Source: Deltaproteobacteria bacterium
Lineage (GTDB): Bacteria; Campylobacterota_A; Desulfurellia; JAGGSF01
Reading direction: 5' to 3'
Length of the DNA stretch: 7,812 nt
Assembly: GCA_021159235.1 (NCBI GenBank)
Contig: JAGGSF010000067.1
Span: forward strand, 1-7,812
The first letter of the stretch is position 1. Every line of letters starts with the position of its first letter. A program made the position numbers and the translations under genes. Positions 104 to 5,555 of this stretch are shown piece by piece. The notes below the pieces were generated by a model that saw only the letters and a program-made list of their open reading frames with translations, was not told the origin of the DNA and ran no database searches.

Positions 104-502
104 TTGAGGGCGTTAGGAAGACACATACTGGTTGAGTATTTCAACTGTGACCGGGAACTTCTCAATGATCCGGTAAGGCTGGAAAGTTGTTTAAAAGAAG
201 CAGCGGTAAAAACCGGTGCTCATATTCTTTCCTCTACATTCAGAACATTTGAGCCACATGGAGTGAGTGGAGTGGTGATTGTCGCCGAATCTCACTTAGC
301 TATTCATACCTGGCCAGAATATGGTATTTTGTTAGGAGATTTTTTTACCTGTGGTGAACAGGCAAACCCGTGGAAGGCGCATGAATATTTGAAAAACATA
401 CTCAAACCCACCCGTTCAATGGAGAGAGAGATTCTGCGAGGCATAATGGACAGGGATATATCGCACAAACCAACCATTCTCAAAGGAGTTGAGAGTGTTT
501 AG
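104..502 (+). CDS. speD: S-adenosylmethionine decarboxylase proenzyme (class 1b, pyruvoyl-dependent)
   Basis: This cytoplasmic self-processing enzyme decarboxylates S-adenosylmethionine to provide the aminopropyl donor for spermidine synthesis. The 132-residue product has the usual length for the small bacterial form. Self-cleavage is expected between Glu62 and Ser63, where Ser63 becomes the pyruvoyl group. The processing/catalytic residues His68 and Cys83 (in FTCGE) are present at the same positions as in the Thermotoga maritima enzyme, as recalled from the family. Phe49, Trp70 and Glu72, expected to hold the substrate, are also kept. The TTG start is chosen for its ideally spaced Shine-Dalgarno site. 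It is the first gene of a three-gene polyamine operon and overlaps pdaD by 8 nt if pdaD starts at its GTG. The stretch after Glu72 (GILLGD) departs from the usual GYAAID. Some SpeD homologues have become arginine or ornithine decarboxylases, but the conserved substrate residues and an adjacent separate arginine decarboxylase make that less likely. Confidence 0.95.
   Translation: MRALGRHILVEYFNCDRELLNDPVRLESCLKEAAVKTGAHILSSTFRTFEPHGVSGVVIVAESHLAIHTWPEYGILLGDFFTCGEQANPWKAHEYLKNILKPTRSMEREILRGIMDRDISHKPTILKGVESV
482..488 (+). promoter_or_regulatory. Ribosome binding site that decides the pdaD start
   Basis: AAAGGAG lies inside the end of speD. It directly abuts an in-frame TTG at 489, which is too close to use, but is six bases from the in-frame GTG at 495. 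GTG at 495 is therefore preferred. Confidence 0.7.
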
Positions 503-968
503 GGAAAGACCCAACATCTTTTGTCTGAGAGCTTCTGCTGGTGATGCATCTTCCGAGCTTAACGCATTTGATATGGCCTTGTTCAAAGCAGGCGTAGGAA
601 ATATGAACTTATTAAAGATAAGCAGCATTTTGCCTCCCCATTGTGAGTATGTGGAAGAGATGAAATTTGAAGAAGGAGCACTTGTTCCTGTTGCTTATGG
701 AGCAGTTCATTCATCGGTTAAAGGAGAGCTTTTGAGTGCAGCTGTAGCTTGTGCTATACCAAGAGATAAAAATAGAGTGGGATTGATTATGGAGTATGCT
801 GCTAAAGGAAAAACAAAGGAGGATACGGAAAAACAGGCAAGAGAAATGGCTTTAGAAGGTATGCGATGGAGAGGCTATGAAGTGGAAAAGATAATGTCTA
901 TATCCTGTGAGCATAGGGTAGATAGGTGTGGTGTGGCTTTTGCCTGTGTTGTTTTAGGATGGAAGTAA
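495..968 (+). CDS. pdaD: Pyruvoyl-dependent arginine decarboxylase
   Basis: This enzyme converts arginine to agmatine, the first step of the putrescine route completed by the downstream agmatinase. It belongs to the PdaD family known from Methanocaldococcus and scattered bacteria. The proenzyme cleaves itself within the Ser-Ser pair of the motif LLKISSILPP, between Ser43 and Ser44 counted from the GTG start, and Ser44 becomes the pyruvoyl group. The preceding GVGNMN motif and Glu100 (in IMEYAAKG), which matches the catalytic Glu of the archaeal enzyme, are intact. The 157-residue length is normal. A TTG at 489 would add two residues but has no usable ribosome-binding spacing. It overlaps the end of speD by 8 nt and ends 3 nt before speB, so co-translation is likely. 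The final codons lie in a 14-bp direct repeat shared with the start of speB. Confidence 0.95.
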   Translation: MFRERPNIFCLRASAGDASSELNAFDMALFKAGVGNMNLLKISSILPPHCEYVEEMKFEEGALVPVAYGAVHSSVKGELLSAAVACAIPRDKNRVGLIMEYAAKGKTKEDTEKQAREMALEGMRWRGYEVEKIMSISCEHRVDRCGVAFACVVLGWK

Positions 969-991
969 TTTATGGACGATGGAAGTAATTT
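958..991 (+). repeat. 14-bp direct repeat across the pdaD-speB junction
   Basis: The 14-mer GATGGAAGTAATTT occurs at 958-971 and again at 978-991, 20 bp apart. Copy one carries the last sense codons and stop of pdaD plus the GGAAG ribosome-binding site of speB. Copy two is codons 3-6 of speB and part of the next. The 20-bp offset is not a multiple of three, so the two copies are read in different frames. Confidence 0.9.
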
Positions 992-1808
992 TATCTGTGC
1001 AGATAAAGATTTTAGAAGATCTAAGGTATGTATAGCGGGTATACCATATGATGGAACAAGTAGTAATAGACCCGGTGCACGGTTTGCACCCAGGGCAATA
1101 AGAGAAGCATCACACGGTATAGAATCTTACAGTATTTACAAAAAGAAGGACTTAGGGGATAAGTCTATCTCCGATATGGGCGATATACCATTACCCTTAG
1201 GCGATGCAAAATTTGCAATGGAAATTATAAAATCTTTTGTTTCTCCCGTTTTAAGGAAGAAGAAATGCTTTTTCCTGGGAGGAGAACATCTGATAACCCT
1301 TCCTATTGTAGATGTTTTATCCACTATGTATGATAATTTGTTTGTGGTGCAATTTGATGCCCATGCAGATTTAAGGGATAGCTGGATGGGTCAAAAACTT
1401 TCCCATGCCTCCGTTATGAGGAGAATAGCAGAAATCGTAGGGTTTGAACATCTACTGCAATTGGGTATTCGTTCAGGCACAGAGGAAGAGTTCAGACTTC
1501 CTTATAGAGATAAACTTTTATGTGAAGATTTTTCCCGTGCAGGCGAATTTGTTAAAATCATAGGTAAAAATCCCGTTTATCTTTCCATAGATCTGGATGT
1601 TTTAGACACATCGATAGCACCTGGAGTGGGAACGCCAGAGCCTGGTGGAAGGAGTTTTACAGAGTTGATTGAAACCTTGATAAAATTTTCATCTCTCAAT
1701 GTTGTGGGTTGTGATCTGGTTGAACTTTCTCCCCATTATGATCCTTCAGGTAACTCATCTACTGTAGCTGCCAGTATAGTGAAAGAAGCTATCATCAGTC
1801 TTTTCTAA
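972..1808 (+). CDS. speB: Agmatinase (agmatine ureohydrolase)
   Basis: It hydrolyses agmatine to putrescine and urea with a binuclear manganese centre and belongs to the arginase/agmatinase family. All metal-binding motifs are visible: GGEH with His106, DAHAD with Asp129, His131 and Asp133, and SIDLDVLD with Asp207 and Asp209, followed by the family motif APGVGTPEPGG (216-226). SHAS with His145 and the C-terminal DLVELSP with Glu251 also fit. Length 278 is slightly short of the usual 290-310, mainly through a short N-terminus. The ATG start follows the pdaD stop by 3 nt and uses GGAAG (961-965), six bases upstream. Neighbouring arginine decarboxylase makes agmatinase far more likely than arginase or formiminoglutamase. 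Its last 14 bases overlap the convergent helicase gene. Confidence 0.95.
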   Translation: MDDGSNFICADKDFRRSKVCIAGIPYDGTSSNRPGARFAPRAIREASHGIESYSIYKKKDLGDKSISDMGDIPLPLGDAKFAMEIIKSFVSPVLRKKKCFFLGGEHLITLPIVDVLSTMYDNLFVVQFDAHADLRDSWMGQKLSHASVMRRIAEIVGFEHLLQLGIRSGTEEEFRLPYRDKLLCEDFSRAGEFVKIIGKNPVYLSIDLDVLDTSIAPGVGTPEPGGRSFTELIETLIKFSSLNVVGCDLVELSPHYDPSGNSSTVAASIVKEAIISLF

Positions 1809-4197
1809 TCATTTCTCTCAGTTGTTCAATGCTGCCGATATGCATCTGACATAGAGGAAGAGCATCTAAAAAGTATTTGCCGTAGGATCTGGTGAGTATT
1901 CTCTTATCCAGGATAACTATTGTTCCTCTATCTTCTCTGCTTCTGATCAGCCTGCCAAAACCCTGTTTTGTCTTTATAACTGCCTTAGGCAGACTGTATT
2001 GTAGAAACGAATTACCTCCTTCCTGTTCAATCAGTTTATATCTCGCACTTTCTACAGGATGAGTGGGAACCTCGAACGGTAACTTTGTGATAACCACGCA
2101 GGAAAGGGCCTTTCCCTTTACATCTATCCCTTCCCAGAAGCTACTTACACCAAATAGAATGCCATTGCTTGATTTTTTAAATAGTGTGAGCAACTTAAAT
2201 CTATCCATATCCCCTTGTTTGAATGTTTCACGGTTTTTTATTTTTCCTCTGCACAATTCATAGACATCATCCATAAGCTTAACGGAGGTAAATAGAGTAA
2301 GAATCCCTCCTTTTACTGTTTCCGTGATGTTCAATATAGCCTGACTGAGAGCTTGTGAAAAACCTTCTTCATGTGGTAACGGAACATCCTTTACCACGAT
2401 GAGTTTCACCGATTTTTGAAAGTCAAAAGAGGAAGGCAAAACAAGGGTTTCCGCCTCCTCAAGACCGATGCTGTTCTGAAAAAAATCAAAGGAATTCCCC
2501 ACACTTAAGGTAGCAGAGGTAAACACACAGCATCTTTTACGGTTAAACAGTATCTCTTTCATACAGGGAGCGAGTTTTAATGGTGTGATGTGGAAAAAGA
2601 GGTTCTCTTTCTGTATGGAAAACCACAGAACATTGTTTTGTTCAGGATTTTCAAACATCTTCAACAAGGATACAAAGGAAAATATTCTTCCCATGTAGGC
2701 ACGAAAGTGTTTTATATAGAACAGTGCTTCTTCATCTTTTATCCGTTTTAATTCTTTTCCTACCTTTTCTCCATGGAGAACTATTCCCTTTAAAATCTCA
2801 TATAATTCTTTCAATGGTTCTTTAACATGCTGAGATATATCTCCGCTGAAGGATATTTCACTGGCATTTTGAGGAAGAAAGGCTTTTATGGTGTGGTATA
2901 TGTTTGTTGATAACACCTCTATCTGTTTTTTCTTTCTTTCTATCTCTTCCCCTAATTTATCCAGCTCTTCATTTAAAGAAGGAAGATTTTCGGCAAATGT
3001 TTGAAGGATAGAGATTACGCCCCTGTTCTTTTTCTTGAAGCGATTGTGTAATTTGGAAAGTGTTCTCTTTACCCCTTCTATGGACAGATTTTCCCCGAAG
3101 TGTTTGGTTGCCACACTTTCTATGTTGTGCGCTTCATCAAAGATAATGTTTTTGTATGGAGGGAGAAGAGCGGAAGCTTCGCTGAGTTGAGAGATAGCAA
3201 GGTCGGAAAAAACAAGATGATGGTTGGCTACGATTATGTCACTGGTTGCAATACGCAGTTTTGCCTTGAAGTAAAAGCAGTTATCCGGAAAGTATTTACA
3301 TCTCTTGTACAGACAGGTATCCGTTTGTGAACATATCTCTTCCCACAATCTCTCGCTTGTAAAATCCGATATTTCCTCATACCTTCCTTCCTTTGTTTTG
3401 CTTGCCCAGTCTCTTAATTTTTCTATCTCTTTCTTCTTTCCTTTAAAGAGGAGGAAACCGCCAGTTTTCAGCATCTCCTCGAATTTTCTTAAACATAAAA
3501 AATGTTCTCTTCCTACTGCTAAAGAGGCAGTAAAAGGTATGTTTAGATTTCTTGAAAAAAATGGTATATCCTTATTTATCAACTGATACTGGAGATTTAT
3601 TGTATTTGTAGAGACAACAATATGCTCCTTATTTTTCCTTGCCCATAATATAGCAGGGAGTAGATAAGCGAAGCTTTTGCCCGTTCCTGTGCCTGCCTCC
3701 ACCACCAGGTTCTTGCCTTCATTCAATGCCTTTGTTACTTCTTCCGCCATCTTCAGCTGCTCTTTTCTGTATTCAAAACCCTCTAACTTTTTAGAAAGAA
3801 GACCTTTGTTTCCAAAATAATTCTTTATCTGTTTTATATCTATTTTTTCTTCTTTTGTTGCGGGCTTTGTTACGATGTGAGCAAATGAGCAATCGTTATT
3901 TACAATGAAAAATCCTACTCCATTCCGAGACAGATAAGCAGCGATATTTAAGTCTTGGTTTGAAGGAGTAAGTATGCCGGAAGGATGATTGTGAATTACC
4001 ACATATCCAGATGGAACATCCACCGCCACTGTACATTCCTCATTCCCCCAGCTTTTAGCCTCTACTTCCTCTATTTTTCCTTCATCATTTGTCTTTCCTG
4101 TGAAGAATACCTCTCCTTCTTCATTCTTTTTGATTTCTTCTGCTATGTAGTTGCGAGCAGAGGGTGTAAATATCTTATTAGCTGGAATGTACATCAT
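1795..4197 (-). CDS. JAMM/RadC-like domain fused to a DinG-type (XPD family) Fe-S helicase
   Basis: The 800-residue protein has two parts. Residues ~1-112 form an MPN/JAB domain with a complete JAMM motif: Glu29, then HNHPSG (His69, His71), Ser79 and Asp82, closely matching RadC. Residues ~140-800 form a superfamily 2 helicase of the DinG/XPD type. They carry Walker A (EAGTGTGKS, 167-175), DEAH (354-357), SATLS (561-565), EGID (689-692) and QGFGRLIRS (745-753). Four cysteines between motifs I and II (Cys235, Cys295, Cys300, Cys307) fit a 4Fe-4S cluster. Residues ~365-550 are charged and helical, as expected of the arch region. DinG proteins unwind DNA 5' to 3' and resolve R-loops or G-quadruplexes; that role is inferred here. 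Many Gram-positive DinG proteins carry an N-terminal DEDD exonuclease instead; none is seen. The ATG overlaps the purF stop as ATGA with only a weak AGAG site, implying translational coupling. A second ATG follows immediately. No frameshift is seen. Confidence 0.9.
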   Translation of the reverse strand: MMYIPANKIFTPSARNYIAEEIKKNEEGEVFFTGKTNDEGKIEEVEAKSWGNEECTVAVDVPSGYVVIHNHPSGILTPSNQDLNIAAYLSRNGVGFFIVNNDCSFAHIVTKPATKEEKIDIKQIKNYFGNKGLLSKKLEGFEYRKEQLKMAEEVTKALNEGKNLVVEAGTGTGKSFAYLLPAILWARKNKEHIVVSTNTINLQYQLINKDIPFFSRNLNIPFTASLAVGREHFLCLRKFEEMLKTGGFLLFKGKKKEIEKLRDWASKTKEGRYEEISDFTSERLWEEICSQTDTCLYKRCKYFPDNCFYFKAKLRIATSDIIVANHHLVFSDLAISQLSEASALLPPYKNIIFDEAHNIESVATKHFGENLSIEGVKRTLSKLHNRFKKKNRGVISILQTFAENLPSLNEELDKLGEEIERKKKQIEVLSTNIYHTIKAFLPQNASEISFSGDISQHVKEPLKELYEILKGIVLHGEKVGKELKRIKDEEALFYIKHFRAYMGRIFSFVSLLKMFENPEQNNVLWFSIQKENLFFHITPLKLAPCMKEILFNRKRCCVFTSATLSVGNSFDFFQNSIGLEEAETLVLPSSFDFQKSVKLIVVKDVPLPHEEGFSQALSQAILNITETVKGGILTLFTSVKLMDDVYELCRGKIKNRETFKQGDMDRFKLLTLFKKSSNGILFGVSSFWEGIDVKGKALSCVVITKLPFEVPTHPVESARYKLIEQEGGNSFLQYSLPKAVIKTKQGFGRLIRSREDRGTIVILDKRILTRSYGKYFLDALPLCQMHIGSIEQLREMIRKD

Positions 4198-5555
4198 TCA
4201 AACTCTGCAGGATATTTACCTGTGAAACAGGCGTAACAAAAATTCTCCTTCCTGCCCACCACTTCCTTCAATCCATCTAAGGAAAGGTAGGAGAGAGAAT
4301 CGGCTGTGGAATATTTTCTTATCTCTTCTATACTGTGGGAGGAGGCTATGAGTTCCCTCCTGGTAGGGGTATCAATGCCATAGAAACAGGGGGAGATGAT
4401 GGGGGGAGAGGCAATACGCAGATGCACTTCTCTTGCTCCCGCTGCTCTTACCATTTTTACGATTTTTCTGCTGGTTGTTCCCCTGACGATGGAATCGTCC
4501 ACCACCACCACCCTTTTCCCCTTTAAAAATTTTCTCACCGCATTGAACTTTATCTTTACACCAAAATGCCTTATGGATTGTTTTGGTTCTATAAAGGTTC
4601 TACCTATGTAATGGTTTCTTATAAGCCCGAACTCCAGTGGTATACCTGAACCCTGAGAAAAACCTATGGCCGAAGCTACACCGGAATCCGGCACTGGAAC
4701 AACAACATCTGCCTCAACAGGGGATTCTTGAGACAGCAGTTCCCCCAATCTCTTTCTGACCATGTAGACATCCTTTCCCCATAAAATACTATCGGGACGG
4801 GCGAAATACACATATTCAAATATACATTGTTTCGGTTCTACCTTTTCAAAGGGTTGCAGGGAGGTTATACCCTTGTCATTTATAATCACAATTTCTCCAG
4901 GTTTTACATCCCGTAAGAACCTGGCTCCGATGAGTTCAAATGGGCATGTTTCTGAAGAAAGGATGATTGTATTGTTCATCTTTCCTATGCTCAACGGTCT
5001 GACTCCATAGGGGTCTCTTACCCCAATGAGGCTATTCTTGGTGAGAATAACCAGTGAATATGCACCCTTTATCTGCTTTAAGGAGTTGACCAGTCTTGTT
5101 ACTATATTTCCCTTACTGCGAGCAATGAGATGGAGGATTACCTCCGTATCGGACTGAGAGTTGAAGATTGCCCCCTCTGCGGTAAGAGTTTTTCTTAATT
5201 TATGGGTGTTGGTTAAATTTCCGTTGTGAGCGATGGCAATGTTTCCCGACGAAATAGTGGCTGTAAACGGTTGCATATTTACAAAACTATCATCTCCTGT
5301 TGTAGAATATCGGTTATGACCGATGGCGATATTCCCTTTTAATTTTTTAATTGTTTCTTTATCAAATGCTTCGGCCACCAATCCCGTGGATTTATATTCG
5401 TAGAAGTTTTTTCTATCTGTAGATACGATACCTGCACCTTCCTGTCCTCGGTGTTGAAGAGCATACAGTATCAAATAGACAAAATTCGCAGCCTCTTTAT
5501 GGTTAAATACACCACATATACCACATGCTTCTTTCAATTTATAATCCAAGGACAT
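4194..5555 (-). CDS. purF: Amidophosphoribosyltransferase (glutamine PRPP amidotransferase), Fe-S type
   Basis: PurF catalyses the first committed step of purine synthesis, making phosphoribosylamine from PRPP and glutamine. After a 10-residue propeptide comes the nucleophile Cys11 of the class II glutaminase domain (CGICGVF), with QHRGQEG, GHNRYSTTG and HNGNL following. The C-terminal phosphoribosyltransferase domain has the PRPP loop VVVVDDSIVRGTTS (349-362). Cys244, Cys390, Cys440 and Cys443 (CYAC) match the 4Fe-4S ligands of the Bacillus subtilis type; propeptide and cluster go together in that class. Length 453 is a little short of usual. It overlaps dapB by 17 nt and the downstream helicase by 4 nt. 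The ATG at 5555 has GAGAG directly against it; a TTG at 5549 has that site at six bases and would leave an 8-residue propeptide, so the start is uncertain by two codons. Oxygen-sensitive regulation of this enzyme class is known, and nucleotide feedback is expected. Confidence 0.96.
   Translation of the reverse strand: MSLDYKLKEACGICGVFNHKEAANFVYLILYALQHRGQEGAGIVSTDRKNFYEYKSTGLVAEAFDKETIKKLKGNIAIGHNRYSTTGDDSFVNMQPFTATISSGNIAIAHNGNLTNTHKLRKTLTAEGAIFNSQSDTEVILHLIARSKGNIVTRLVNSLKQIKGAYSLVILTKNSLIGVRDPYGVRPLSIGKMNNTIILSSETCPFELIGARFLRDVKPGEIVIINDKGITSLQPFEKVEPKQCIFEYVYFARPDSILWGKDVYMVRKRLGELLSQESPVEADVVVPVPDSGVASAIGFSQGSGIPLEFGLIRNHYIGRTFIEPKQSIRHFGVKIKFNAVRKFLKGKRVVVVDDSIVRGTTSRKIVKMVRAAGAREVHLRIASPPIISPCFYGIDTPTRRELIASSHSIEEIRKYSTADSLSYLSLDGLKEVVGRKENFCYACFTGKYPAEFE

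Follow-up and report, generated by a model that had tools for sequence, protein, structure and literature searches.

JAMM domains of the RadC type occur throughout bacteria, and we know of no established activity for them. The locus described here raises the question of what such a domain does when it forms part of a DNA helicase, an architecture that Aravind's group reportedly noted earlier. A covalent tie to a helicase would narrow the possible substrates of the JAMM domain to something encountered on DNA.

A JAMM Metal Site and an Iron-Sulfur Helicase in One Chain

On the minus strand of the window (the whole stretch of 7,812 nucleotides that was analyzed), a frame running from 4197 to 1795 contains 800 codons without a stop. 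The gene, its parts, and its upstream neighbor are:

1795–4197, minus strand: RadC-like JAMM domain–DinG helicase fusion gene, 800 aa
3862–4197, minus strand: RadC-like JAMM/MPN domain, about residues 1–112 (PF04002, AlphaFold2 model, Foldseek)
4111–4113, minus strand: Glu29, the putative JAMM general base (alignment)
3952–3993, minus strand: His69-Asn-His71-Pro ... Ser79-x2-Asp82, the JAMM metal site (alignment)
3787–3861, minus strand: linker, about residues 113–137 (lower pLDDT, variable alignment)
1798–3786, minus strand: DinG/YoaA-type XPD-like helicase, residues 138–800 (NF053712, PF13307)
3673–3699, minus strand: Walker A, EAGTGTGKS, residues 167–175 (core invariant in the alignment)
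3277–3495, minus strand: Fe-S region, Cys235, Cys295, Cys300, and Cys307 (motif positions and alignment)
3127–3138, minus strand: Walker B, DEAH, residues 354–357 (motif position)
residues 561–565, minus strand: helicase motif SATLS (motif position)
1942–1965, minus strand: helicase motif VI, QGFGRLIR, residues 745–752 (motif position)
4194–5555, minus strand: purF, directly upstream of the fusion gene with an ATGA overlap; a neighbor kept across the class

The initial annotation had described a single uninterrupted frame, a RadC-type JAMM domain with its motif at Glu29, His69-x-His71, Ser79, and Asp82, and an intact DinG helicase with four cluster cysteines and all helicase motifs. The frame and the four cysteines are as described, and every position given for the JAMM motif is correct; with Asn70 and Pro72 included, the metal site has the canonical spacing HxH-x7-S-x2-D. 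Residues 1–130 match the Pfam RadC family PF04002 at 28.2 bits, above the gathering cut-off of 22.1, and the RadC family models TIGR00608 and NF000642 give the protein 20–25 bits, under their cut-offs of 133.85 and 180. Structure prediction had been proposed as a test of the MPN fold, and the alignment-based AlphaFold2 model of residues 1–140 (pLDDT 85.5) has a predicted MPN/RadC fold. Its best Foldseek match in the PDB is RadC from Chlorobium tepidum (2qlc, E 5.2e-5), followed by BubCD, Rpn11, PfJAMM1, and other MPN domains (Z 8–10 over about 100 residues).

We aligned 21 fused proteins, which come from several phyla and are mostly about 30% identical to the window's domain. None of these rows departs from the Glu, both His, the Asn, Pro, Ser, and Asp, and neither do 55 further distinct rows, a few of which repeat loci from the first alignment. 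At the level of sequence, this invariance shows selection on the metal site; it says nothing about the substrate.

In the helicase part, Helicase_C_2 (PF13307) scores 161 bits, and the YoaA model NF053712 matches from residue 126 with 565.6 bits, which misses its curated cut-off of 680. Judged by motifs, the protein has the MD1, Fe-S, Arch, and MD2 elements and the intact ATP motifs of an XPD-like helicase. Two Myxococcota-type relatives in the alignment have Thr in place of Cys295. A Pfam search found no exonuclease (DnaQ, the mark of ExoDinG) at the N terminus, where the JAMM domain stands instead. As read from its sequence, one chain thus combines a JAMM metal site under strict conservation with the Fe-S cysteines and the full set of helicase motifs. 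In the window's genome, an assembly of 1.13 Mb in 122 contigs from which absences are provisional, no PF13307 helicase and no PF04002 match other than the fusion protein was found; the same-genus genomes agree for E1 and HolC.

The Fusion Recurs in Several Phyla

From 84,980 species genomes, a scan yielded 80 relatives, 20 of which carry the same fusion. The carriers belong to Planctomycetota (Brocadia, Jettenia, and Kuenenia), Auribacterota, UBP3, Myxococcota-type bacteria, and two other bacteria. They include the two other genomes of the window's order, from the same genus, whose proteins are 85% identical to that of the window. A sequencing or assembly error joining two genes at about residues 112–140, which the initial annotation had named as one of the findings that would undo its reading, is therefore excluded.

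We also measured the spread of the N-terminal domain with a profile of that domain alone (E below 1e-10) in genomes sampled from two phyla. Matches were found in 45 of the 294 Planctomycetota genomes and in 53 of the 282 genomes of a phylum that we read as Myxococcota. The latter sample includes the genome of one relative labelled Myxococcota; UBA796, which we take to be Myxococcota, is the second basis for the name. Nearly all matches lie in frames of 700–1300 aa, with few in short frames, some of these near contig ends. Because of these frame lengths, fusion to DinG is, in the genomes sampled, the normal state of this JAMM subfamily.

Other origins were considered and rejected. For a mobile element, no plasmid match to the N-terminal domain was found, and among the 20 whole-protein phage matches listed, all begin at residue 104 or later and thus cover the helicase only. 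The RadC-like domains obtained from viral contigs are not fused to a DinG-type helicase. Matches to defense systems were to the type IV DinG-type helicase only, with none to the JAMM part. Two viral contigs encode giant frames of more than 2000 aa that have a RadC-like motif near residue 1000–1070 and resemble polyvalent proteins.

The Gene Lies behind purF

The gene string around the fusion gene is dapF-dapA-dapB-purF-helicase. The fusion gene starts with ATGATG and overlaps the purF stop codon (gaATGATG); as its start lies inside that stop codon, it is probably translationally coupled to purF. We found no pointer to DNA repair in this neighborhood of amino acid, purine, and polyamine genes, and no partner gene beside the fusion gene that is conserved across phyla; purF, dapA, and dapB are shared only within the class. 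Three adjacent polyamine genes (S-adenosylmethionine decarboxylase, pyruvoyl-dependent arginine decarboxylase, and agmatinase; 104–1808, plus strand) converge on the helicase gene and overlap its end by 14 bases.

Probable Loss of the Metal Site and the Domain within Desulfurellia

All 25 genomes of the NCBI class Desulfurellia (families f1–f4) carry this helicase, but its N-terminal part differs among them. In f1, the window's order (3 genomes), the JAMM domain is intact. The 16 genomes of f3, which comprises Hippea and its relatives, encode an N-terminal domain roughly 100 aa long that lacks every JAMM ligand. The f2 orthologue, at 627 aa, has no room for the domain, and the f4 orthologue is a 676 aa protein or fragment without JAMM, with one f4 locus offering a frame of only 436 aa. 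The f3 genes are positional orthologues of the window gene, because purF flanks them as in the window and dapA and dapB recur in several; the order purF then helicase is found in both JAMM and JAMM-less families of the class. A stand-alone RadC occurs in the window's genus and in f4; none was detected in those f2 and f3 genomes that were tested, whose helicases likewise carry no active JAMM.

In trees of the helicase part only, f1, f3, and f2 form one group (SH-aLRT 98–99) placed among JAMM-bearing proteins, although these trees come from quick searches and contain some long branches. A clade of JAMM proteins only is rejected (p-AU 0.01), and JAMM and Desulfurellia proteins form one clade with a support of 36 in one tree and 89–99 in others. 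The initial annotation had held that homologues without the JAMM motif would speak against its reading. Such homologues do exist in sister families of the same class, but the absence of JAMM there reads as secondary loss within the JAMM clade and not as evidence against the fusion.

The f3 domain has no Pfam match, and a profile-profile comparison (hhalign) found no similarity between it and the JAMM domain. In a shuffle test the whole domain gave a marginal z of 1.8, the N-terminal part a positive z of 4.0, and the last 55 residues a null result. These sequence results, together with structural Z scores of only 4.7–5.7, would suit an unrelated domain that had replaced JAMM. That explanation has to account for an f3 model that was built from its own nine-sequence alignment, with JAMM sequences left out, and nevertheless has the order of elements in the window's domain model: helix, three strands, helix, two strands, helix. 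Moreover, nearly all of the 50 structural matches listed for the f3 model are MPN domains, if at modest Z, and they include many metal-free MPN subunits (CSN6, Rpn8, and eIF3). The domain also occupies the same position in orthologous genes behind purF, and these genes are nested inside the JAMM clade in the helicase tree. We consider replacement improbable, and a degenerate JAMM/MPN domain, as the models suggest, likely. Given these mixed sequence results, we base the link chiefly on fold, position, and phylogeny. We propose that one Desulfurellia family subsequently lost the metal site and kept an MPN-like shell, and that another lost the whole domain.

A Candidate Role for the JAMM Domain

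The reading that we favor, with some reservation, is that an intact RadC-like JAMM metal-hydrolase domain on a chromosomal DinG/YoaA-type 5'-3' Fe-S DNA helicase acts on a substrate exposed by the helicase. The helicase would move along single-stranded DNA, unwinding in the 5'-3' direction, and the JAMM domain would bind metal and hydrolyze. Unwinding could place the metal site at a structure or an adduct encountered at a blocked fork, an R-loop, or a repair intermediate; the domain may then cut a bond there, either in the DNA itself or in a protein that is bound or crosslinked to it. JAMM would then be the processing part, in the place that an exonuclease or endonuclease takes in other DinGs. 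As the Desulfurellia families that lost the metal site or the domain show, the helicase of some lineages can do without the hydrolase in its core role.

This loss is also what best suits a different view, that the N-terminal domain serves chiefly a structural purpose or docks protein or DNA, with the metal site kept only for stability or regulation. Sister families that keep a ligand-less MPN-like domain, or drop it, have a helicase that works without the site. However, all catalytic residues, among them the Glu base and the Ser, are invariant across phyla, whereas a structural zinc site would need less, and we regard a mainly structural role as rather unlikely. Another explanation is a peptidase or isopeptidase that strips DNA-bound complexes of ubiquitin-like tags or of proteins during remodelling by the helicase. 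The fold and motif are those of JAMM isopeptidases, and BubCD, Rpn11, and PfJAMM1 are the best structural matches after RadC. Yet the window's genome, two genomes of the same genus, and one Auribacterota genome yielded no E1/ThiF protein over the cut-off, which argues against ordinary conjugation of ubiquitin-like proteins (Ubl) in these four. Comparison of neighborhoods found no Ubl gene near the fusion gene, and RadC itself is reported as unlikely to possess a groove for the ubiquitin tail (PMC5512222). We consider the isopeptidase explanation unlikely, as is the removal of ubiquitin-like tags in the window's genus, given the absence of E1/ThiF there. Coupling to the clamp loader in the manner of YoaA is unlikely too, because HolC (PF04364) was found in none of the eight genomes tested, with a positive E. 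coli control.

A helicase-coupled hydrolase remains our preferred reading. A bolder form of it, which we offer tentatively and with more doubt than belief, combines a new JAMM activity on DNA, RNA-DNA, or DNA-protein adducts (and not on ubiquitin-like tags) with stepwise loss, from active JAMM to ligand-less MPN shell to no domain, at one conserved Desulfurellia locus. Sister lineages without the metal site or without the domain amount to a natural experiment on the role of the JAMM domain, and comparison of their proteins makes that role directly testable.

Comparison with Known Systems

The alternative DinG architecture that the initial annotation had proposed is widespread and has a name in the literature: 'RadC-like DinG' is one of ten DinG subgroups defined by Cheng 2025 (PMC11981726), and the window protein therefore belongs to a kind already described. 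For the protein of Desulfuromonas soudanensis, that study presented a model with a zinc site, and it stated that RadC-like DinG has been without research so far. The window protein shares with this type the N-terminal RadC-like JAMM domain with its E, H, H, and D, the YoaA-like Fe-S helicase, and the absence of HolC. It differs only in host lineage, a small Desulfurellia genome; the lineage itself differs in having sister families that lost the metal site or the domain.

Stand-alone RadC (PF04002, TIGR00608) has the same JAMM fold and HNHPSG-x4-S-x2-D motif and provides the best PDB match, but the fused form scores far lower, and its match to the family model is confined to the C-terminal part. 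Many fusion genomes contain a separate stand-alone RadC, which scores 136–162 bits against 24–34 for the fused form. Because the stand-alone RadC of the same-genus genomes scores about 150 bits and their fused domain 25–27, the fused domain is, by these scores, not simply a captured copy of the resident RadC. One Auribacterota genome encodes three RadC-domain proteins, one of them in a 605 aa frame, besides a stand-alone RadC and the DinG fusion.

Every helicase and Fe-S motif is shared with YoaA/DinG, from which the window protein is set apart by its score below the YoaA cut-off, its extra JAMM domain, and the missing HolC partner. ExoDinG, pExoDinG, and EndoDinG likewise have an enzyme-like extra domain at the N terminus, and a counterpart with an inactive domain exists among them; ExoDinG and EndoDinG carry an exonuclease or endonuclease where the window protein carries a JAMM hydrolase domain. 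Relative to the literature, what is new here is the set of same-locus relatives in which the metal site or the whole domain is lost, and the reading of the Hippea domain as MPN-like. Cheng 2025 (PMC11981726) placed the Hippea maritima DinG-like protein among 'Others' and left its N-terminal domain, which resembles known proteins only to a limited degree, unassigned, as it did that of Kosmotogales DinG. In Hippea-type genomes the DinG-like protein is the orthologous helicase behind purF, and its N-terminal domain, without JAMM ligands and MPN-like in prediction, is a probable degenerate MPN domain.
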